The position numbers and the translations under genes were made by a program. Under the pieces are notes generated by a model. It did no database searches, was not told the origin of the DNA, and saw only the letters and a list, made by a program, of their open reading frames with translations. This document shows, piece by piece, positions 1,687 through 24,900 of a DNA stretch of 35,127 nucleotides. Position 1 is the stretch's first letter, and every line of letters begins with the position of its first letter. Origin of the DNA: a virus; the IMG/VR virus record IMGVR_UViG_3300044695_000376, positions 1 through 35,127 of that record. The stretch is one strand, 5' to 3'.

Positions 1687-3773
1687 ACCTTGAAGAAAAA
1701 TTCTTAAACCAAGCTGCCGCTGAGATATTGCCGCAACTAGAGGAAACGAATCCTAACTTTCGTGGTCCAGTTCCACCAGCTCCACAAAAAGAAGCTCCAA
1801 CTGGTGAGATTCCTTTAATACCAGAAAAGCCTTTACCTGCTAATTTAATTTCTTCTGGTAGAGCTGTTGAGGCTACTGTTATTGGTCAACAATCTCCTAT
1901 TAATAAACCTGCTGCTGATACAACTACTGGTGTTATGCCAGTTACTGGTCGTGTATTTCCTGAAGACACAGCATCAATCCAAAATATACCTCGGACACAA
2001 TTAGAGGAAATGATGGGTAACATTGGATCTACAATACAGTCTGGCGCTGAGTATCTAGACTTTGCTGTGATTGGTTTGCCTGATGTCGGAACTCTTACTT
2101 TGAAGGATCTTACTGTAGGTGATCTTGGTAAAGTAATGGAGGCTATGAGTTATGGCTTTACTCCTACCACTGGCGAAGGTCAGACTCTACGTCCGACACC
2201 AGAGGCGCTAGATCTGCTGAATGCTATACCTGCATTCCAAGCTGCTAGTAAAGCAGTTAAGTATGGCGCTAAAGGATTAAGGGCTGGTGCTGAAGCATTG
2301 GCTCCTGCTGCTGCTGATGTAATCGAATCTGGTTTGCGTAAGACTGGCATGATTGCAGACATTGTGCCTGATGGTAAGTCTATGCCAAAGCCAGAAGGAT
2401 TAGTAAGCAGTAGATTCCCAACTGCCGTAAAAGCAACTGAAGACCCATTAAAAAATAATTTATTAATTAATTTGGATGCGGCAAAACAAGATCCTAAAGC
2501 ATTTGAACATAATGTAAATTTAATAACTAAATATCCTAACTTTGTATCAAGTGCTAAAACAACTGATTTAAAAGCTGATGATTTTATAAATAGCGTAAAA
2601 GATAATCTTTTATTTTTATACGATGCTGTGCCAGATGCAACCAGAAAGAGAAGTATGCTTTGGTATGACGGTGCAAGAAATATTACTGATAAATGGTCAA
2701 GTCAATACAACATACCTGATCAATCAGTTGCTGGTGTATTAGCTGTCTTATCTCCACAAAAAGATTGGTTTATGAATGTTTCACTTGGTGAGCGTGTAAT
2801 AGACATTATGTCTACCAAACAATCATACAAGTGGGACAGTGCAATGTCTTCAAAAGCAAAGCAGATATGGAAAAAAGAAAAATATGCGCCAATGCTAAAA
2901 GCAATTGAAGGTAAGCAATTATCTGAAATAACTGATGTTGGATTAAAAGCAATGTGGCTTAGAACATTTGATGAAGCTCATTTACCAAGGGAGCATCAAA
3001 TTGTAACTCCAGAAGGTCAGTATGCTGGTGCAAGACTTACATCAAAAGGAGTTCCATATCAAACTGGATGGGGTTCTTTAAATGAAATAGGTAAGGCTGT
3101 AAATATATTTGAAAACCCAAGCGTTGAAAATGTTAGTTTAAATCTTGGAACGCAACATAAAGTAAGAAGTTTTTATAATAATATTTACGCACCTAATGAT
3201 TCATCAGGTAATGTGACTATTGATACTCATGCAGTTGCAGCTGGATTGTTGCGTCCTTTATCTGGAAAAAGTAGAGAAGTAGAACATAATTTTGGATCAA
3301 ATGTAAAAGGTGAAGTTGGTCCAAAGAATAGTTCATTTACTGGATCACAAGGAACTTATGCCATATATGCTGAAGCATATAAGAGAGCAGCTGAAGAACG
3401 TGGTGTATTGCCTAGACAAATGCAATCTATTACATGGGAAGCTGTTCGAGGACTTTTTGAGGACACATTTAAAACCCCTAAAAATGCCGAAATGATAGAT
3501 AATATTTGGCTACAATATAAGAACGGCAAAATATCATTAGAGGATGCTAGAAATGAAATTGTCAAATCAGCAGGTGGAATCACAGCCCCAGAGTGGGAGC
3601 GAGCCGGATTACGTCCTGAATCTACTAAAGCAGTTCAACCTGCCAGTAACGAGGGAGAACTATCTGGGACTAGCGTATCCAGAGGGGCTGCCGGAGGATT
3701 GGTCAGCGGAAAACGAAATGGAACTTCCGCAAGAACTAAGAGAAAAGTAACAGCTACTGGAGGTGCTGAATAA
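1683..3773 (+). CDS. Large internal virion protein with a central HhH-GPD/DUF7178-like domain
   Basis: 696 residues. The N-terminal 240 residues are Pro-rich then helical. Residues about 246-620 form a distinct domain containing LSPQKDWFMN (about 356-366), a K-x-x-x-FYNN stretch and TIDTHAVAA (about 512-520). The K...FY.N...[IV]DTH pattern recalls the core of HhH-GPD DNA glycosylases, where the Asp before TH is catalytic, and phage polyvalent-protein domains such as DUF7178; this is inference from motif memory. The domain-coding DNA (about 2430-3560) is visibly more AT-rich than its flanks. The last 60 residues are low-complexity and overlap a second gene in another frame. The gene sits between two likely ejection proteins, so the product is probably carried in the virion. 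Confidence 0.6.
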   Translation: MNLEEKFLNQAAAEILPQLEETNPNFRGPVPPAPQKEAPTGEIPLIPEKPLPANLISSGRAVEATVIGQQSPINKPAADTTTGVMPVTGRVFPEDTASIQNIPRTQLEEMMGNIGSTIQSGAEYLDFAVIGLPDVGTLTLKDLTVGDLGKVMEAMSYGFTPTTGEGQTLRPTPEALDLLNAIPAFQAASKAVKYGAKGLRAGAEALAPAAADVIESGLRKTGMIADIVPDGKSMPKPEGLVSSRFPTAVKATEDPLKNNLLINLDAAKQDPKAFEHNVNLITKYPNFVSSAKTTDLKADDFINSVKDNLLFLYDAVPDATRKRSMLWYDGARNITDKWSSQYNIPDQSVAGVLAVLSPQKDWFMNVSLGERVIDIMSTKQSYKWDSAMSSKAKQIWKKEKYAPMLKAIEGKQLSEITDVGLKAMWLRTFDEAHLPREHQIVTPEGQYAGARLTSKGVPYQTGWGSLNEIGKAVNIFENPSVENVSLNLGTQHKVRSFYNNIYAPNDSSGNVTIDTHAVAAGLLRPLSGKSREVEHNFGSNVKGEVGPKNSSFTGSQGTYAIYAEAYKRAAEERGVLPRQMQSITWEAVRGLFEDTFKTPKNAEMIDNIWLQYKNGKISLEDARNEIVKSAGGITAPEWERAGLRPESTKAVQPASNEGELSGTSVSRGAAGGLVSGKRNGTSARTKRKVTATGGAE
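3553..3750 (+). CDS. Small overprinted phage protein in the +1 frame inside the preceding gene
   Basis: 65 residues starting at ATG 3553, preceded by TAGAGG nine bases upstream, a good ribosome binding site. An earlier in-frame ATG at 3544 overlaps that site and is less likely. The product contains NLPVTRENYLGLAYPEG and ends in an acidic then basic tail (ELPQELREK). The pattern TRENYL.LAY....P...S.E.E.ELP resembles a small conserved phage protein often found near virion genes; its function is unknown to me. In the same bases the long host frame is a Gly/Ser/Thr/Arg-rich low-complexity tail. That contrast suggests this short frame is the constrained one. Confidence 0.65.
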   Translation: MKLSNQQVESQPQSGSEPDYVLNLLKQFNLPVTRENYLGLAYPEGLPEDWSAENEMELPQELREK

Positions 3774-6706
3774 TGGCTATCGAATCTCTCAATCAGCGCC
3801 TAGACCAGCTAACTCCTGAGAATCTACAGGTACAGCAGACGCTACCTAATATCGAGCCTCCACCGTTTAATGCGGAGACTGAGGCTATTCTACCTGCCGA
3901 TGAGCAGCCAGTGGACGAGTTTGTGCCGGAGGCTGGGTTATTTTCGCAGCTAGTTAAAAAGCAGATCAAGAAAGCTCCTCTTAGCTCTGAGCGCAAGATC
4001 CTGCAAAAGGATATCCAGTCTGGCAAGGTAGGTGCATACACAGTAATTAGAGAGGACGCACCAGTTGATGAAATATTAAGAGAGGCTAAGACTGCACCAT
4101 CATCTGGTAGACCATCTCCAACTCAGGCACAGAAAGTAGCTGGAGTTGAGACAACTATATTTAATCTAGACAAGATTAATGATGTTGACAGTTTTAAGCA
4201 ATTCTTACAAGCCAGTGCTAAAAAATACGATGCTGATAAATTAGAAAAAATGTCATATAAGGATGTGGCTGAACAGGCTGCATTAGATGGATATGACGAA
4301 AGATTTATAGCTAGAATGCTTGATCCTAAAATGCAGACAGTAGCTAGTCCAAAGGAAGCAGCAACAATGCTTAACCTATTGGTAGATTCTGGAAAACACG
4401 CTTTTAATCTTGCAGAGCAAGTTAAGGTAGCGACTGCTAATGGAACTATTACGGCTGAGTTAGCTACCCAATTCCATCAGGCTGTAGCATTTGAAGGTGT
4501 ACTTGCTAAAGCTGTAAAAGGAAGACAGGCTGATATAGCTAGAACACTTGGTATATTTTCACAAGCTAGAACTGCTAGTACAGCTAGAGGCGCACAGCTA
4601 GAGACAATCCTTAATGAGGCTGGTGGAATTAGAAATTCATTCGAGCTGGCTAATAGCTACACTGCTTTGGATAGTCGTGCTGATCGTGCTGCATTATCAG
4701 AAAAAACTATATCTGGAACAACACGAGATATATGGTACTCAACATGGATCAACGGTCTATTGTCTTCACCAGTTACGCACGCAAAGAACATAGTAGGTAA
4801 TACTGCATTTGGTGCGTATATGTTGCCAGAAAGATTAATTGCGTCAGGCATTGGCAAGGGTAGAAATTTTATTTTTAAAGGTGGCGAAGAGGCTATCCAG
4901 CTAAATGAAGTTTATGCACAGGCAATGGGTATGCTTCAAGGCATACGTGAAGGCGGCAGTATAGCTGTTACCGCATTTAAAAAGAATGAGCCTACTGATG
5001 CGCTATCTAAGATTGAAAACTTCAGGAATGGTAGAGACACATTTGATGTTTCATTTGGTGACTCTGCTACAGCACAAGCGCTTAATAATGCAATGAAATA
5101 CTGGGGTGGATTTGTAACCACACCTAGTCGTGCGCTGATGGCAGAGGATGAATTCTTTAAGGCTGTTGGCTACCGCATGGAATTGAATGCGCTAGTAACC
5201 AGAGAAGCTAACAAGGAATACAGTAACTTAATTAAGAATGGTGTTGATGAGACTACGGCAGCACAGCAAGCAGCAACACTACATGAAAAGCTTTTGGTTG
5301 AGCCTACAGCTGAAATAGAAGAGGCAGCTAAATCAATGGCTTCAACTGTTACCTTTACAAGAGAACTTGAAGAAGGTTTACAGGGCGCTCAAAGATTCTT
5401 GAAGGACACTCCAGTCCTAAAGATATTCTTCCCATTCGTCAAAACTCCTACCAATATTGCGATGGAGGCAATGAGTCGTACTCCAATTATAAATTTTACT
5501 TCACCTAGATTTTGGGCTGACTACAATGCTGGTGGTATTCAAAGAGACATGGCGATGGCTAGAGTTGCCCTTGGATCTTTAATTGTTTTTGGCGCTGGAT
5601 CATATGCTCTTGATGGAAAAGTAACTGGATATGGACCAATGCGGTCAGAGGATAAGGCTGCACTTGAGGGTACAGGCTGGCAGCAATTCTCATTTGTCTT
5701 TAATAGATCTGATGTGAGTCCAGAGTTACTTGCTCAGTACAAAGAAATAACTCAAGTCAAAGAGACACCAGATAAGGTCTATGTCAGCTACGCTGGTATT
5801 GAGCCATTCTCATCCATGATGTCTATTTCTGCTACAGCTGGTGAGTATGCGATGGTAGACGGTAGTGAGGTAGACATGGAAAAGCTGATGATGGGAGCTA
5901 CCCTAGGATTGTATCAATACACATCTGAACAGCCTATGCTGCAAGGCTACGGTGAGCTAATGAAAATGTTTTCGTCCAAGGCAAATGATGCGCCATCAAT
6001 GCTTTATAACGTGATGGCACAAGTATCCAAGCAGACTAGTTCATATGTAATTGGTGGATCTCCAGCTGGCGCTTACTCATCATTCATTGCCAGCATTGAG
6101 CGTATTGTAAAACCAGAGAAAAGCTTGGTGATGGAGGCAGTATCTCCTGATGATGTGAATCTTATCTCTGGTGCTGAGAAGGGATTTTGGGAGGCTTTTG
6201 CACAAGCTAAGTCTAGAAATCCATTGACATCAGATACGCTACCAGTACAGCTAGATGCAATCACAGGTAATGAAAAGCGTATTGGCAAAGGTAACTGGTC
6301 AGAGATGTGGGATCCATTTAAATCAAGCGATGGTAAGTATTCTCCAGCTCATGCGGTACTGGTGGAATACGGTGTGCCAATGCCTAAGATTCCTAAAAAA
6401 ATTGATGGTGTTGAATTAACTGACAAGCAATACAATCAATGGATTCAAATTGCTACTGAGACTTTTAACATTGAAGACAAAATTGTTAAGCTTGGATCTA
6501 GTAAGGAATTTAGATCATTAGCATCTACAGACTTGGGTGCTGCTCAAGCTTTATTAAACAAGGTTATATCTGATGCATATAACGGCACACCAACTAATCA
6601 GGGTGCTAAATATATATTGCTTGCTGATCCAGAAAATATGGACTTAGCTGATGCAATTGAAGGTGTAAAAGAAAAGCAGCGTGAATTCGGAAAATATAAA
6701 AGGTAA
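3773..6706 (+). CDS. Giant internal virion / DNA-ejection protein (gp16-like position)
   Basis: 977 residues. GGAGGTG eight bases upstream supports ATG 3773, which shares one base with the previous stop (TAATG). The N-terminus is Pro/Glu-rich and probably disordered. The rest is mainly helical, with a TWINGLLSSPVTHAKN motif near residue 325 typical of large phage internal proteins. A hydrophobic stretch ALGSLIVFGAGSYAL lies near residues 598-612, followed by G-x-GPM and a GWQ block. These features fit large podoviral ejection proteins that enter the host envelope with the DNA. No lytic transglycosylase motif is evident. The family is not certain. Confidence 0.65.
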   Translation: MAIESLNQRLDQLTPENLQVQQTLPNIEPPPFNAETEAILPADEQPVDEFVPEAGLFSQLVKKQIKKAPLSSERKILQKDIQSGKVGAYTVIREDAPVDEILREAKTAPSSGRPSPTQAQKVAGVETTIFNLDKINDVDSFKQFLQASAKKYDADKLEKMSYKDVAEQAALDGYDERFIARMLDPKMQTVASPKEAATMLNLLVDSGKHAFNLAEQVKVATANGTITAELATQFHQAVAFEGVLAKAVKGRQADIARTLGIFSQARTASTARGAQLETILNEAGGIRNSFELANSYTALDSRADRAALSEKTISGTTRDIWYSTWINGLLSSPVTHAKNIVGNTAFGAYMLPERLIASGIGKGRNFIFKGGEEAIQLNEVYAQAMGMLQGIREGGSIAVTAFKKNEPTDALSKIENFRNGRDTFDVSFGDSATAQALNNAMKYWGGFVTTPSRALMAEDEFFKAVGYRMELNALVTREANKEYSNLIKNGVDETTAAQQAATLHEKLLVEPTAEIEEAAKSMASTVTFTRELEEGLQGAQRFLKDTPVLKIFFPFVKTPTNIAMEAMSRTPIINFTSPRFWADYNAGGIQRDMAMARVALGSLIVFGAGSYALDGKVTGYGPMRSEDKAALEGTGWQQFSFVFNRSDVSPELLAQYKEITQVKETPDKVYVSYAGIEPFSSMMSISATAGEYAMVDGSEVDMEKLMMGATLGLYQYTSEQPMLQGYGELMKMFSSKANDAPSMLYNVMAQVSKQTSSYVIGGSPAGAYSSFIASIERIVKPEKSLVMEAVSPDDVNLISGAEKGFWEAFAQAKSRNPLTSDTLPVQLDAITGNEKRIGKGNWSEMWDPFKSSDGKYSPAHAVLVEYGVPMPKIPKKIDGVELTDKQYNQWIQIATETFNIEDKIVKLGSSKEFRSLASTDLGAAQALLNKVISDAYNGTPTNQGAKYILLADPENMDLADAIEGVKEKQREFGKYKR

Positions 6707-21195: not shown

Positions 21196-21208
21196 GTAGT
21201 GGGTGTGT

Positions 21209-21246
21209 CTGTACAAAAACGAATGGTTCGATTCGAGTTTGTACAG
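21209..21246. other. 38-bp imperfect inverted repeat, possible replication-origin dyad
   Basis: Outer arms CTGTACAAA (21209-21217) and TTTGTACAG (21238-21246) are perfectly complementary. Inner arms CGAAT (21220-21224) and ATTCG (21231-21235) are also complementary, with symmetrical 2-base bulges and a 6-base loop. It starts 14 bases after the initiator-like gene and is followed by TACGTTA direct repeats (21253, 21269) and AT-rich ATATCAATTAATTAA. No T-run follows, so a simple terminator is unlikely. Confidence 0.5.
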
Positions 21247-21387
21247 GCATAATACGTTATCATTATGGTACGTTACGATATCAATTAATTAACGCTGTGT
21301 TATCAAAGTGGCATTATCCCCCCCCACCCCACCACCTATCGATGGGGGGACTGACACAATTTTTCCTGACTTTTCCTTGGAGGTTGT
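21247..21387. other. Non-coding AT-rich then C-rich tract, origin candidate
   Basis: Contains TACGTTA at 21253 and 21269 (16 bp apart), an AT-rich block (21278-21292), and an unusual run of eight C (21318-21325). A run of six G follows (21344-21349) that can pair with the C run around an ATCGAT palindrome. A T-rich stretch and GGAGGT lead into the next small gene. Confidence 0.4.
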
Positions 21388-21528
21388 ATGGTTAGCTTAT
21401 TGATGTACAACTTAGTGATATTTTTTGGTGGGATGATGTTTGAAAGATTCCTAAGATCACTTGATGGCTACGCTAAAGAATATCTTTTATATAAAAGGTA
21501 TCACAGTGATAAGTTTGATCCTGAGTAG
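21388..21528 (+). CDS. 46-residue small membrane protein
   Basis: ATG 21388 follows TTGGAGGT with three bases between, an excellent ribosome site in otherwise non-coding surroundings. The product begins MVSLLMYNLVIFFGGMMFERF (one hydrophobic segment, about residues 2-17) and ends with a charged Tyr-rich tail (EYLLYKRYHSDKFDPE). No family known to me. It overlaps a possible lipoprotein in the +1 frame. Confidence 0.6.
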   Translation: MVSLLMYNLVIFFGGMMFERFLRSLDGYAKEYLLYKRYHSDKFDPE

Positions 21529-21676
21529 TTGCGTGTTGCATTCCTATAGAGTTGCAACGTGCAACACTAAGCCAGAGTGGAGATGCGGCAACGGAACCAC
21601 ACCCGAAGAAAAAGGGATGATCTCTAAAAAGAGAGTGCGCTCTTGTTTATCTAAGCTACTTAGTCTGCCAAACTAA
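21464..21676 (+). CDS. Possible small lipoprotein overlapping the membrane protein gene
   Basis: 70 residues from ATG 21464. The N-terminus MATLKNIFYIKGITVISLIL then SSC fits a lipoprotein signal (basic n-region, hydrophobic core, lipobox LSSC, Cys23). The mature part is basic with several Cys (CNTKPEWRCGNG). There is no good ribosome site before the start, and the frame overlaps potential RNA hairpins, so it may be a chance frame. If real, an outer-membrane exclusion lipoprotein is one guess. Confidence 0.38.
   Translation: MATLKNIFYIKGITVISLILSSCVLHSYRVATCNTKPEWRCGNGTTPEEKGMISKKRVRSCLSKLLSLPN
21528..21565 (+). other. 13-bp RNA hairpin after the small membrane gene
   Basis: GTTGCGTGTTGCA (21528-21540) pairs with TGCAACGTGCAAC (21553-21565) over 13 positions, including two G-U pairs at the centre, around a 12-base loop. 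No T-run follows. It may be a transcript-processing or stability element, or part of a larger structured RNA. Confidence 0.5.
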
Positions 21677-21943
21677 GATGGTTAAACTGGCTCCGATCTG
21701 GTTGCCTTGTCTCATCCGAGGGGCTAACAGAAGAAATACCTAACCATTCGCTACGTTTATCCCTATTGGTCACGCACTACCGCAAGGACAGCTGGGTTAT
21801 GGCTGCATTCACCAATCTTACTTCAATTGAGGAAAAAAACAATATTGGTAATTACTATTGATTGCTAAATACTGATAGTTAAAATGCATATGCTTGTTTG
21901 CAGAATTTGAGATACTGATGGCTGTTTAGGAAGGGAGATAGAA
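21566..21943 (+). other. Low-coding stretch with several potential hairpins and a promoter-like site
   Basis: Apart from the doubtful lipoprotein frame, I see no gene here. Potential helices include GGCAAC (21587) with GTTGCC (21691) enclosing AACCA (21595) with TGGTT (21679). Others are AAGAG/CTCTT (21629/21640), CTTAGT/ACTAAG (21659/21672) and ACCAAT/ATTGGT (21811/21844). Individually these are near chance; together they are suggestive of a structured leader RNA. Confidence 0.35.
21858..21885 (+). promoter_or_regulatory. Sigma70-like promoter before the SSB-like gene
   Basis: TTGATT (21858-21863), a 16-base spacer and TAAAAT (21880-21885) lie about 60 bases before the GTG start of the SSB-like gene. 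This would start the transcript that runs into the terminase genes. Confidence 0.4.
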
Positions 21944-22216
21944 GTGGAATATGACAATACCAATCGTGGCACACTTTTCAAAGCGAAAGAAAAGAAAAGT
22001 GAGAAGAGTCCTGATTACACTGGCACTATTAATATTGCTGGTACTGAAATGCGCTTATCTGCTTGGCTGAAGGAATCGAAAGCAGGTACAAAATACTTTA
22101 GTCTGGCAGTGTCCGAGAAGGATGGTCAGTACGAAAGTAAGAGCAATGCTCGTCCTAGATCTGAAGGTAGGACTGATGGCAATGCCTCTCATGTAGATGA
22201 CGATATTCCATTCTGA
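21944..22216 (+). CDS. SSB-like small ssDNA-binding protein
   Basis: 90 residues from GTG 21944 with GGGAG upstream. The body (RGTLFKAKEKKSEKSPDYTG, then INIAGTEMRLSAWLKE and GTKYFSLAVSEK) is a short OB-like beta pattern known from small phage proteins. The acidic tail ending DDDIPF matches the C-terminal tip by which bacterial SSB recruits partner proteins. It probably coats single strands during replication or recombination and feeds them to the annealase. Its stop overlaps the next start (TGATG). Confidence 0.68.
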   Translation: MEYDNTNRGTLFKAKEKKSEKSPDYTGTINIAGTEMRLSAWLKESKAGTKYFSLAVSEKDGQYESKSNARPRSEGRTDGNASHVDDDIPF

Positions 22217-22464
22217 TGGCTACCAAGAAAAGAGTACGCACTCCAGATCCTGAAGCTGGTCTGCCAGCTGGGGCAATGATGGAGACGGATATCTGCATAG
22301 CGTATACCTTAAAAGGTATAACCTACCTGCCTCACTACAGTGAACGAGTCTACGTAGGGTTAGGTTATGGGGTTACTAACTTTGATACTTATTTGGGTAT
22401 TGAGTTGAAAGCCTTGGGTGCTAAACCTGTGGAGCTGGCGCTGTGGAAGAGGAGACAGTTTTAG
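22216..22464 (+). CDS. 82-residue hypothetical protein
   Basis: ATG 22216 shares one base with the previous stop. The product begins with a basic segment (MATKKRVRTPDPEAGLPAG) followed by a beta-rich part (ICIAYTLKGITYLPH, then RVYVGLGYGVTNFDTY). No family is recognised. Coupling to the SSB-like gene suggests a shared role in DNA metabolism. The unusual non-coding tract starts at its stop. Confidence 0.55.
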   Translation: MATKKRVRTPDPEAGLPAGAMMETDICIAYTLKGITYLPHYSERVYVGLGYGVTNFDTYLGIELKALGAKPVELALWKRRQF

Positions 22465-22916
22465 GGAAAGCGGATGCTGTGTAAGATTGACCGTACATCG
22501 GTGTAAGTCCGATGGCACAGACGCAGCGAGTACCTACCTTTTTAAGGCTGAGTCGCACAGTTTTCCTTAAACTTACGCTGGCTAGGGTTGCGACTGCCAG
22601 CTCCAACACGCATGAGGATTGGATGGAGCAGACCCTAGTGGGATGGGGGACTAGACAGCTCAGTATTAACGAAAACCGACTACTAATCGGGAATTAGTGA
22701 AAAGCTGTTAATAGTAAACGGAGTGGCGGGCGGGCTAGTAACCCAATGTGTCCACACCGATCAGTCTTCAGTCGTGTTGGTGGATGCGTAGGCTGATACG
22801 CAGATTTAAATGTGGTCGTGAATGGTAGGTGGCTAATCCCATGTCGCTGAAAACACATTATGGGAAACTTCACAAGTCGGAGATAAGCACCGATCACCAA
22901 CTTCAATTTAAAGATT
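22465..22916 (+). ncRNA. Candidate structured non-coding RNA (or packaging site) before terS
   Basis: 452 bases without a convincing gene in a genome where genes otherwise overlap. Perfect local stems include CATCGG/CCGATG (22496/22509), GCTGGC/GCCAGC (22577/22596), ACTAAT/ATTAGT (22682/22693) and TGCGTA/TACGCA (22785/22797). A pseudoknot is possible at the 3' end: AATGTG (22809) with CACATT (22854), and TCCCAT (22837) with ATGGGA (22860). ACCTACC (22532) can pair with GGTAGGT (22824), closing most of the element. Known large phage RNAs (GOLLD, ROOL) set a precedent but I cannot assign a family. A cos/pac packaging region is the main alternative. Confidence 0.45.
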
Positions 22917-23360
22917 ATGGCTACTAAAAAAGAAAAAGAGAAGTTTCCAAACCAGATACCACCATTGAAGAACTATGGTGGTGTACGTCTCATCCAGAAA
23001 AGACTGGAGAGATCCGGCACTCTGGAGGCTAACAGGGAGGCTGTCGCTTATGCACTACTATCAATGGCGAATACAAAGCTATCAGATATCATGGAATGGG
23101 ATTCCTCTGGTAACGTCATGGTCAAAGCCAGTAAAGACATACCAGAACACGCTCTCCATGCCATCAAAAAGCTAACCAGTCGCACAGATCGGGAAGGTAA
23201 TTCCTATATCGAGATTGAGTTGCATGACAAAGTGCAGGTATTGCGACTGCTGGCTAAAGCTTCTGGACTCTTGGACGGTGGCGATAATGGAGACAAACCT
23301 AGCGTGATTGGTATTAATATCAAAGCGCCCACAGTGATTGATGTAAACGATGAAGACTAA
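22917..23360 (+). CDS. terS: Terminase small subunit
   Basis: 147 residues. After a basic, Pro-containing N-terminus, the helical body matches phage small terminases: LSDIMEWDSSGNVMVKASKD, then IPEHALHAIKK and the DKVQVLRLLAKASGLL segment typical of Terminase_2-like proteins. It would recognise the packaging site, possibly in the non-coding tract immediately upstream, and deliver DNA to TerL. The ribosome site is weak (AAAG three bases before the ATG), so upstream RNA structure might influence translation. It overlaps terL by 11 bases. Confidence 0.8.
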   Translation: MATKKEKEKFPNQIPPLKNYGGVRLIQKRLERSGTLEANREAVAYALLSMANTKLSDIMEWDSSGNVMVKASKDIPEHALHAIKKLTSRTDREGNSYIEIELHDKVQVLRLLAKASGLLDGGDNGDKPSVIGINIKAPTVIDVNDED

Positions 23361-24900
23361 GGAAACTAGCGGTAAGTCAGTACCAGATATCGGTATCAAC
23401 TTAGACTTTTCGGACTCGCCAAAGGTGTGGGAGTTCATGCAGTCGGATAATTTCGTCCAAGGCTTGATGGGTCCAGTGGGTAGTGGTAAGTCATATGCGT
23501 GTGCAGCCAAGATATTTATTAAGGCTATCCAGCAAAAACCCAGCCCTATAGACAATATTCGCTACTCACGCTGGGCGATAGTGCGAAACAGCTACCCAAT
23601 GCTAAAGACCACTACGATTAAAACGTGGCTGGATCTGTTTCCTGAGAATACATTTGGTTCCCTGCTTTGGACTCCACCGATTACCCATCACATCAGGTTG
23701 CCAGCTAGAGATGGTGCAGCTGGTGTGGATTGCGAAGTCATATTTTTGGCACTTGATCAACCAAAGGACGTAAGAAAACTACTGTCCTTAGAACTTACAG
23801 GAGCATGGGTCAATGAAGCAAGAGAGTTACCTAAAGCCGTTATTGATGGTCTTACTCACAGGGTTGGCAGGTATCCTACTAAGCGTGACGGTGGGAGTAG
23901 TTGGCACGGTATATGGATGGATACGAATCCCATGGATGATGATCACTACTGGTATCGGTTAGCAGAAAAAGAAAAGATGACTGGAAAGTATGCTTGGAAG
24001 TTCTTCAAGCAGGAAGGCGGTGTAGTCGAGGTTAGCCACACTGATTTGCCAGACAATCCAGAGGCTAATGATCATATATTTGCAGCTGGTAAATGGTGGA
24101 AGCTAAACCCTAAAGCAGAAAATATTAAGAACTTACCTGCTGGCTATTACCAGCAAATGCTATTAGGTAAAAATTTAGACTGGATCCGCTGCTACGCTGG
24201 TGGACAATATGTCTATGTGCAGGAAGGAAAACCAGTCTGGCAGGAATATGATGACTCCATGATGTCTGGTGATGTAAATGTGGATCCAACTCAAGCTATA
24301 CAAGTAGGTTTGGACTTTGGTTTGACTCCAGCTGCTGTGATTGGGCAGCGTTTGCCTAATGGTCGGTGGAATATTCTTGATGAAATCGTTACTGAAGACA
24401 TGGGTTTGGAGCGTTTTGGTCAGCAACTGCTGGCAGAGTTAAACGCAAAGTACCCAAACTTCCAAGTATTGCTGTGGGGTGATCCAGCTGGTATGGCACG
24501 AGATGCGATTTATGAGGTAACAAGCTTTGACTACCTACGCACTTTGGGTTTGCGCGCACAACCAGCTCCATCAAATGACTTTAAGGTGCGTAGAGAAGCA
24601 GCTGCTATGCCGATGCAAAGACTGATTCAGGGTAAAGCTGGGCTGATGGTCAACACTCGGTGCAAGTTATTGCGTAAAGCACTGGCTGGTGGCTATCACT
24701 TTAAGCGTATTGCTGTGGGTGCAGGTCATGAACGGTTTAGAGATGCGCCAAACAAGAACGAGCATTCCCACGTAGGTGACGCATTTGGCTACTTGCTGCT
24801 AGGTGGTGGTGAGCATAAGAGATTAACCAAGCCGCAACACCTACAAAATACGATAGTTGTGCAGACTATTGCTAATTCAGACTTTGATCCGTTTGAATGA
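23350..24900 (+). CDS. terL: Terminase large subunit
   Basis: 516 residues. Walker A GPVGSGKS at 41-48 and a Walker B-type segment LTGAWVNEAREL near 147-158 (catalytic Glu in NEA) form the packaging ATPase. The nuclease domain shows VGLDFGLTPAAV (Asp near 322), LLWGDPAG near 375-381 and HSHVGDAFGYLLLG near 473-484, the three acidic motifs of the RNase H-like fold. It cuts concatemeric DNA and pumps it through the portal. It overlaps terS and the next gene (ATGA). Confidence 0.93.
   Translation: MKTKETSGKSVPDIGINLDFSDSPKVWEFMQSDNFVQGLMGPVGSGKSYACAAKIFIKAIQQKPSPIDNIRYSRWAIVRNSYPMLKTTTIKTWLDLFPENTFGSLLWTPPITHHIRLPARDGAAGVDCEVIFLALDQPKDVRKLLSLELTGAWVNEARELPKAVIDGLTHRVGRYPTKRDGGSSWHGIWMDTNPMDDDHYWYRLAEKEKMTGKYAWKFFKQEGGVVEVSHTDLPDNPEANDHIFAAGKWWKLNPKAENIKNLPAGYYQQMLLGKNLDWIRCYAGGQYVYVQEGKPVWQEYDDSMMSGDVNVDPTQAIQVGLDFGLTPAAVIGQRLPNGRWNILDEIVTEDMGLERFGQQLLAELNAKYPNFQVLLWGDPAGMARDAIYEVTSFDYLRTLGLRAQPAPSNDFKVRREAAAMPMQRLIQGKAGLMVNTRCKLLRKALAGGYHFKRIAVGAGHERFRDAPNKNEHSHVGDAFGYLLLGGGEHKRLTKPQHLQNTIVVQTIANSDFDPFE

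Follow-up and report, generated by a model that had tools for sequence, protein, structure and literature searches.

We argue that the 452 nt directly before the small terminase gene of this phage form a chain of structured RNA modules, and that the last of these, C2, is a tRNA-like domain in which kissing loops replace the canonical tRNA elbow. From the comparison of related sequences we regard this structural part as nearly certain. Our best explanation as a whole is that these are exchangeable RNA modules whose tRNA-like domain acts as a tRNA-mimic decoy carried as cargo. We offer it tentatively and would not call it probable.

The window, the whole stretch of DNA analysed, is a virus record of 35,127 bases. 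Its gene order is that of a phage: replication-type genes, then terS, terL and the structural genes. The gap runs from 22465 to 22916. An 82-aa ORF (22216-22464) lies 5' of it, and terS (22917-23360), with a weak Terminase_2 match just under the curated cut-off (E=5.8e-5), lies 3' of it. The large terminase gene terL (23350-24900; phrog_2, E=3e-18) follows directly. All three are on the + strand. The sequence-only reading took this gap for a structured, non-coding stretch without a convincing gene, and that is confirmed. The largest ORFs are 50-70 aa and the relatives show no protein-level conservation.

The same reading counted four perfect 6-bp hairpins. With loops of 3-12 nt we count three, so the number was wrong, but the excess over chance is real. 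Shuffles that keep the dinucleotides give 0.78 +/- 0.87, and three or more occur in 13/300 of them. There are 13 pairings of 7 bp against 5.3 in shuffles, which makes such hairpins and pairings about 2-4 times commoner than in shuffles. One of the three perfect hairpins, 22785-22802, is the D-arm-like arm of C2. The folding energy of the + strand is unremarkable (z = -0.87), so energy alone would not reveal the structure. Two other proposed features gain nothing from the relatives. The pseudoknot at 22809-22865 falls in the hypervariable middle of C2, and the 7-bp pairing 22532/22824 bridges unrelated modules.

Relatives were collected through TerS homologues, which gave 80 loci. Among those with 97-100% identical TerS the 82-aa ORF is kept but the stretch between it and terS is not. 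Five loci with near-identical TerS have no insert at all. In these the 82-aa ORF overlaps the TTG start of terS, which makes the weak ribosome site suggested for terS plausible. In six others module A is all that fills the slot, with the same borders and with interiors that differ across groups. Between relatives, the interiors of module A bear no relation to one another, and most of the flanking genes are 86-95% identical. One close relative (L003) has A, B and a tRNA-Tyr gene (GTA, 660-746 of that locus). Another (L001) has A, B, a 73-aa Acb2_Tad1_hairpin protein, and then C1 and C2; the gene for this protein, of the Acb2/Tad1 anti-defence type, is at 4524-4742 (PF24729, E=1.7e-14). The window and a near-identical record (L002) have A, B, C1 and C2. 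Occupied and empty sites before terS compare cleanly. Since relatives with near-identical TerS do without the insert, neither TerS nor packaging needs the gap, which behaves like a slot for cargo. These comparisons support a chain of structured RNA modules on the same strand as the surrounding genes, with contents exchanged among close relatives.

The gap had been proposed to be an undescribed large phage RNA. That it is an undescribed RNA is supported by covariation in C2, A and C1, by its presence in hundreds of phages and by the lack of an Rfam match. One large RNA specific to this place it is not; the gap is a string of modules that are distributed independently. The Rfam search was run at gathering and at permissive thresholds and gave no relevant match in the window or in the C2 loci. 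The covariation search suggested for homologous regions found covarying pairs in all three of these modules. A blastn search of the gap against phages and plasmids gave only matches of 20-35 nt, and these pointed to C2 in known phages. Antisense targets of the module interiors within the window genome are in no excess over shuffles.

Some other differences near the slot were seen. Upstream of the 82-aa ORF, L001 and one of the relatives with only module A (L012) carry a 153-aa ORF in place of the window's SSB-like gene. In L012 the part that can be seen carries a CxxC...HH pattern, which hints at an HNH-type protein. The window also has a second long gap of 748 nt (21196-21943), which is 79-86% identical over about ten relatives and has no Rfam match. 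At 21388-21528 there may be a 46-aa ORF, ribosome site included, and the next 415 nt or so (21529-21943) are conserved non-coding sequence with strong hairpins. Roughly 21686-21803 is still about 70% identical in three more distant relatives.

Module A occupies 22460-22538 on the + strand (core 22464-22534) and has the same borders in 124 distinct instances. It has a short outer helix, a conserved internal loop (GAAAGCGGAUG / ACGCAGCGAGUA), a short inner helix and a hypervariable tip. Pairing was counted at bases outside the specified search pattern. The outer pairs form in 124/124 and 114/124 instances, where column make-up predicts 85.6 and 64.6 if the columns were independent. The variable inner pairs form in 93/114 and 76/114 against 48 and 43 expected. 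Patterns with exact borders find A in at least 120 stretches of the viral collection and C1 in at least 63. These patterns specify 22-23 bases, and by our own estimate, which is not a tool result, chance matches should be well under one. Module A was found in none of 200 bacterial genomes. A common position for it is between a stop codon, just upstream, and the next gene.

Module B (22541-22600, +) is a pseudoknot predicted from sequence, in which UUUAAGG/CCUUAAA is crossed by AGUCGCA/UGCGACU, with a further CUGGC/GCCAG helix. It is found only in the window, L001, L002 and L003, at 95-98% identity. Module C1 (22603-22780, +) is a long hairpin whose borders recur in 43 distinct instances. Its arms are CCAACACG-CAU-GAGGAUUG and CAGUCUUC-AGU-CGUGUUGG, with a variable tip of 140 nt between them. 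One free stem position is G-C, U-A, A-U or C-G depending on the phage and is paired in 43/43 instances against 34.8 expected; the outer extension is mostly paired as well. The 3' strand of C1 (22773-22780) runs into the 5' strand of the C2 outer stem (22776-22782). Because bases 22776-22780 belong to both, the two helices compete and are mutually exclusive there.

Sharing of interiors between different module types is not general. Only three such pairs were found and one is convincing, a 46-nt interior with 96% identity between an A (L243) and a C1 (L269). Agreement in strand between the modules and neighbouring ORFs is moderate only, with crude ORF calls. Other elements turned up in the same loci. 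In six of them C2 is replaced after C1 by other recurrent structured modules bounded by GTTGG...CCAAC. Another frequent element, AGCCxGCCGG..GTGGCGC..TAACACCGGCAGC.GGGGCT, is present in six loci. The contig that gave the C1 just mentioned, L269, also has the Rfam Betaproteobacteria-1 RNA (RF02932) at 3309-3430.

The central result is C2. The whole domain spans 22776-22901 on the + strand, and its minimum-energy fold has the same topology as the covariance model R1. The 5' strand of an acceptor-like stem, GUUGGUG (22776-22782), pairs with CACCAAC (22895-22901) over 7 bp. A 2-nt linker leads to a D-arm-like hairpin of 6 bp, UGCGUA-GGCUGA-UACGCA (22785-22802). A hypervariable middle (22803-22875) takes the place of the tRNA anticodon arm. 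It is followed by a T-arm-like hairpin of 5 bp, GUCGG-AGAUAAGCA-CCGAU (22876-22894), which lies directly against the acceptor-like stem. These are the proportions of the acceptor stem, linker, D-arm and T-arm of a tRNA, and the elbow is made by five loop-loop pairs. The window has four of the five (GCUGA with UAAGC, one mismatch), and most other copies have all five. The middle measures 18-208 nt in other instances and is unrelated in sequence among most of them. C2 as a whole is about 90-300 nt long.

Covariation supports the outer stem, the T-arm and the kissing pairs. A second scan of the viral collection put no constraint on the two hairpin loops or on the outer stem past GTG. It gave 116 distinct instances, and in nearly all of them five bases of one loop are complementary to five of the other. 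Most are GGCTGA/TCAGCA, and two-sided changes give GGTCGA/TCGACA, GTGCGA/TCGCAA and GACTGA/TCAGTA. A few instances are not compensated, such as GACTGA with TCAGCA or GGCTGT with TCAGCA. The three free positions of the outer stem are paired in 100-101/102 instances, against 47-92 expected. The seventh pair holds in 88/102, and base pairs 8 and 9 fall to 55 and 35/102, which is about chance. The stem thus covaries for exactly 7 bp. A formal set of 40 sequences with different interiors was also assembled, leaving out the window's relatives. Here 97.7% of cells pair, against 25-48% when the partners are slid. Nine pairs show double changes, with 69 double-change cells against 20.9 +/- 3.3 in shuffles that ignore relatedness. 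Some stem bases were already set by the search patterns, and pairs that never vary therefore count for nothing here. Only one pair of the kissing helix shows a double change in this set, and the loop-free scan is the stronger evidence for that helix.

R1 was built without the window's relatives and still matches the window at 22774-22903 (65.5 bits, E=2.8e-15). It also matches P1, mEp460, an O157 prophage, Bas80, phiEt88, ZC08, CASP1, Flu_PA14_3, Klebsiella phages and others. C2 is at 2500-2601 of the P1-type locus (L513) and at 2495-2623 of the Flu_PA14_3 locus (L515). C2 lies unannotated in the tRNA clusters of Pseudomonas phage ZC08, Alcaligenes phage CASP1 and a Klebsiella phage. The scan of the viral collection finds it in at least 119 stretches, and two queries find it in 221 and 239 phage records, weak tail matches included. 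Its 30-nt 5' motif is in 1,261/5,426 complete E. coli genomes (about 23%); 724 of the 1,721 places hit by this query are on plasmids, and a P1-type record is one phage example. Under stricter filters C2 is in 9/398 genomes of one bacterial phylum. It is absent from Rfam and from the annotations we saw, and a text search of mostly openly readable papers found no description of these modules.

Where C2 sits is also informative. Of 205 C2 instances, 28 (14%) have a tRNA gene within 500 nt, where random positions in those loci give 3.3%, and all 28 are on the tRNA strand. C1 behaves the same way, with 11/63 (17%) against 4.1% and 11/11 on the tRNA strand. Klebsiella phage RCIP0108 has an apparent free-standing RNA gene with C2 (2497-2626 of locus L280) as its 3' end. 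This has a promoter-like site at 2157-2185, a match no better than its chance frequency, and a strong terminator at 2665-2682. Upstream of C2, a P1-type phage (L513, 1350-2900) and Bas80 (L517, 2220-2500) have a conserved stretch GCGACTTTGCGG...TTTAGAAACTGACCA...AAATGCAAACGATGATG, which is apparently the 5' domain of a larger RNA.

The likeness of C2 to tRNA (RF00005) is one of topology and not of membership. Both have a 7-bp acceptor or acceptor-like stem, a 2-nt linker, a D-arm, a 5-bp T-arm adjoining the acceptor and a contact between D-loop and T-loop. C2 has no anticodon arm of fixed form, its T-like loop is 9 nt, its elbow is five Watson-Crick kissing pairs and no CCA is encoded. Neither ARAGORN nor the Rfam tRNA model called a tRNA in the window. 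The species 1 and 2 RNAs of T4, rnaC and rnaD, are another comparison, as small RNAs beside phage tRNA genes whose roles are unknown (PMC3014915). The 3' end of rnaC is a T-arm-like hairpin directly before a possible acceptor-like strand, as in C2, but its T loop looks canonical (UUCGAAU) where C2 has a kissing loop. The last strand of rnaC (L518, 1909-2047) could make a 7-bp stem with the 5' end, with two U-U mismatches. From its sequence the species 1 RNA may be tRNA-like too. As homologues of C2 we reject rnaC and rnaD, since R1 finds nothing in this T4 region at E up to 10.

Several other readings of the modules have to be weighed. One suggestion, prompted by where the gap lies in this phage, just ahead of terS, was a role in packaging, as a cos/pac signal or a packaging RNA, or in regulating terS. 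The insert is missing from five relatives whose TerS is near-identical, so it is not conserved with the terminase. The slot contents are unrelated among relatives, and A, C1 and C2 all occur away from terminase genes in other phages. By sequence comparison this idea is already largely refuted, and we give it almost no weight. One can also picture the conserved hairpins as recombination or transposition sites at the DNA level, either folded strands like attC or the ends of small mobile elements, with the RNA incidental. The clean occupied and empty sites before terS would suit this, as would the exchange of tip contents, once between A and C1 (the 46-nt interior). An attC site likewise has conserved arms and a variable tip. 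Several things argue against it. U-G or G-U pairs on the + strand (columns 12/29, 13/40; kissing pair 19/119, 6/40) are A-C mismatches on the other strand. The long-range covariation of the kissing loops and the complete agreement with the tRNA strand argue for RNA, and no associated recombinase was identified. We consider DNA sites very unlikely. The U-G and G-U pairs, the tRNA-strand agreement and the antisense layout of the putative RCIP0108 transcript favour a function at the RNA level.

At that level the strongest rival is that the modules work in cis, on a transcript still being made or already processed, as antiterminators like the HK022 put RNA, as processing sites or as stability elements. 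The position of A between a stop codon and the next gene fits this, and conserved internal loops with variable tips would suit docking of a protein or RNA polymerase. The put RNA is a phage-encoded structured RNA too; it is about 70 nt long, has two stem-loops and works in cis on the transcript that carries it (PMC9378689). C2 is larger and has a hypervariable middle unlike put, a comparison made by description and not by sequence. In Bas80 and RCIP0108 C2 is antisense to most neighbouring genes, and the RCIP0108 terminator comes at most 40 nt after C2, which is odd for an antiterminator. We think action in cis doubtful. Another possibility is that C2 is one domain of modular, large RNA-only complexes like ROOL and GOLLD, which enclose or present tRNAs or other cargo. 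ROOL and GOLLD are large, structured RNAs of phages, functionally unexplained and often encoded beside tRNA islands; C2 shares this niche near tRNA genes, and in GOLLD, too, the 3' part is conserved and the 5' part variable (PMC12286853). C2 has kissing loops, and long non-coding stretches surround it in RCIP0108 and in the P1-type record. The kissing pairs are explained within one molecule, though, and a module can stand alone or be joined to others in many different orders. C2 itself is a small domain, tRNA-like in form, that turns up in many settings. The Rfam covariance models give no match to ROOL or GOLLD in the window or related loci, nor to OLE, at any threshold tried. A place in such complexes is improbable, and we see the relation of C2 to ROOL and GOLLD, as to T4 rnaC, as an analogy of setting only.

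This leaves the tRNA-mimic reading, in which C2 would be accessory cargo. C2 would be transcribed and would fold into an L-like shape that displays the variable middle at the position of the tRNA anticodon arm. It would most likely be a decoy or sponge for a host factor that handles tRNA or for a defence nuclease that cuts it, and the middle would be under diversifying selection. The tRNA-Tyr and Acb2/Tad1-type genes that take their turn in the slot point toward a tRNA mimic or counter-defence cargo. Together with the tRNA-like fold and the fast exchange of interiors, they make this the most economical guess. A phage tRNA-Tyr defeats retron-Eco7, although it does so by replacing a functional tRNA and not as a decoy (PMC11555353). 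It must be said that about 86% of the C2 copies are more than 500 nt from any tRNA gene, which counts against a mimic. Ordinary tRNA enzymes may not recognise C2, because it has neither an encoded CCA nor a canonical elbow. Taken by itself, the tRNA-mimic function of C2 is possible but rather unlikely. A wider claim is more doubtful still: that C2 represents very widespread, undescribed phage tRNA mimics, with a kissing-loop elbow as scaffold and a payload exchanged fast, serving as swappable RNA counter-defence cargo. The carriers under this reading would be podoviruses, lambdoid phages, P1-like phage-plasmids and others.

A common class of phage RNA seems to have gone unnoticed. If the structure holds, a tRNA-like RNA domain is present in more than 200 sequenced phages and in about 23% of complete E. 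coli genomes, where prophages or phage-plasmids carry it; P1-type phages and O157-type prophages are among its carriers. The exchangeable modules are a natural case of RNA parts swapped between phages, and C2 is open to testing in laboratory phages. Its covariation-supported structure gives a starting point in phage tRNA islands, where rnaC, rnaD, ROOL and GOLLD have resisted functional explanation.
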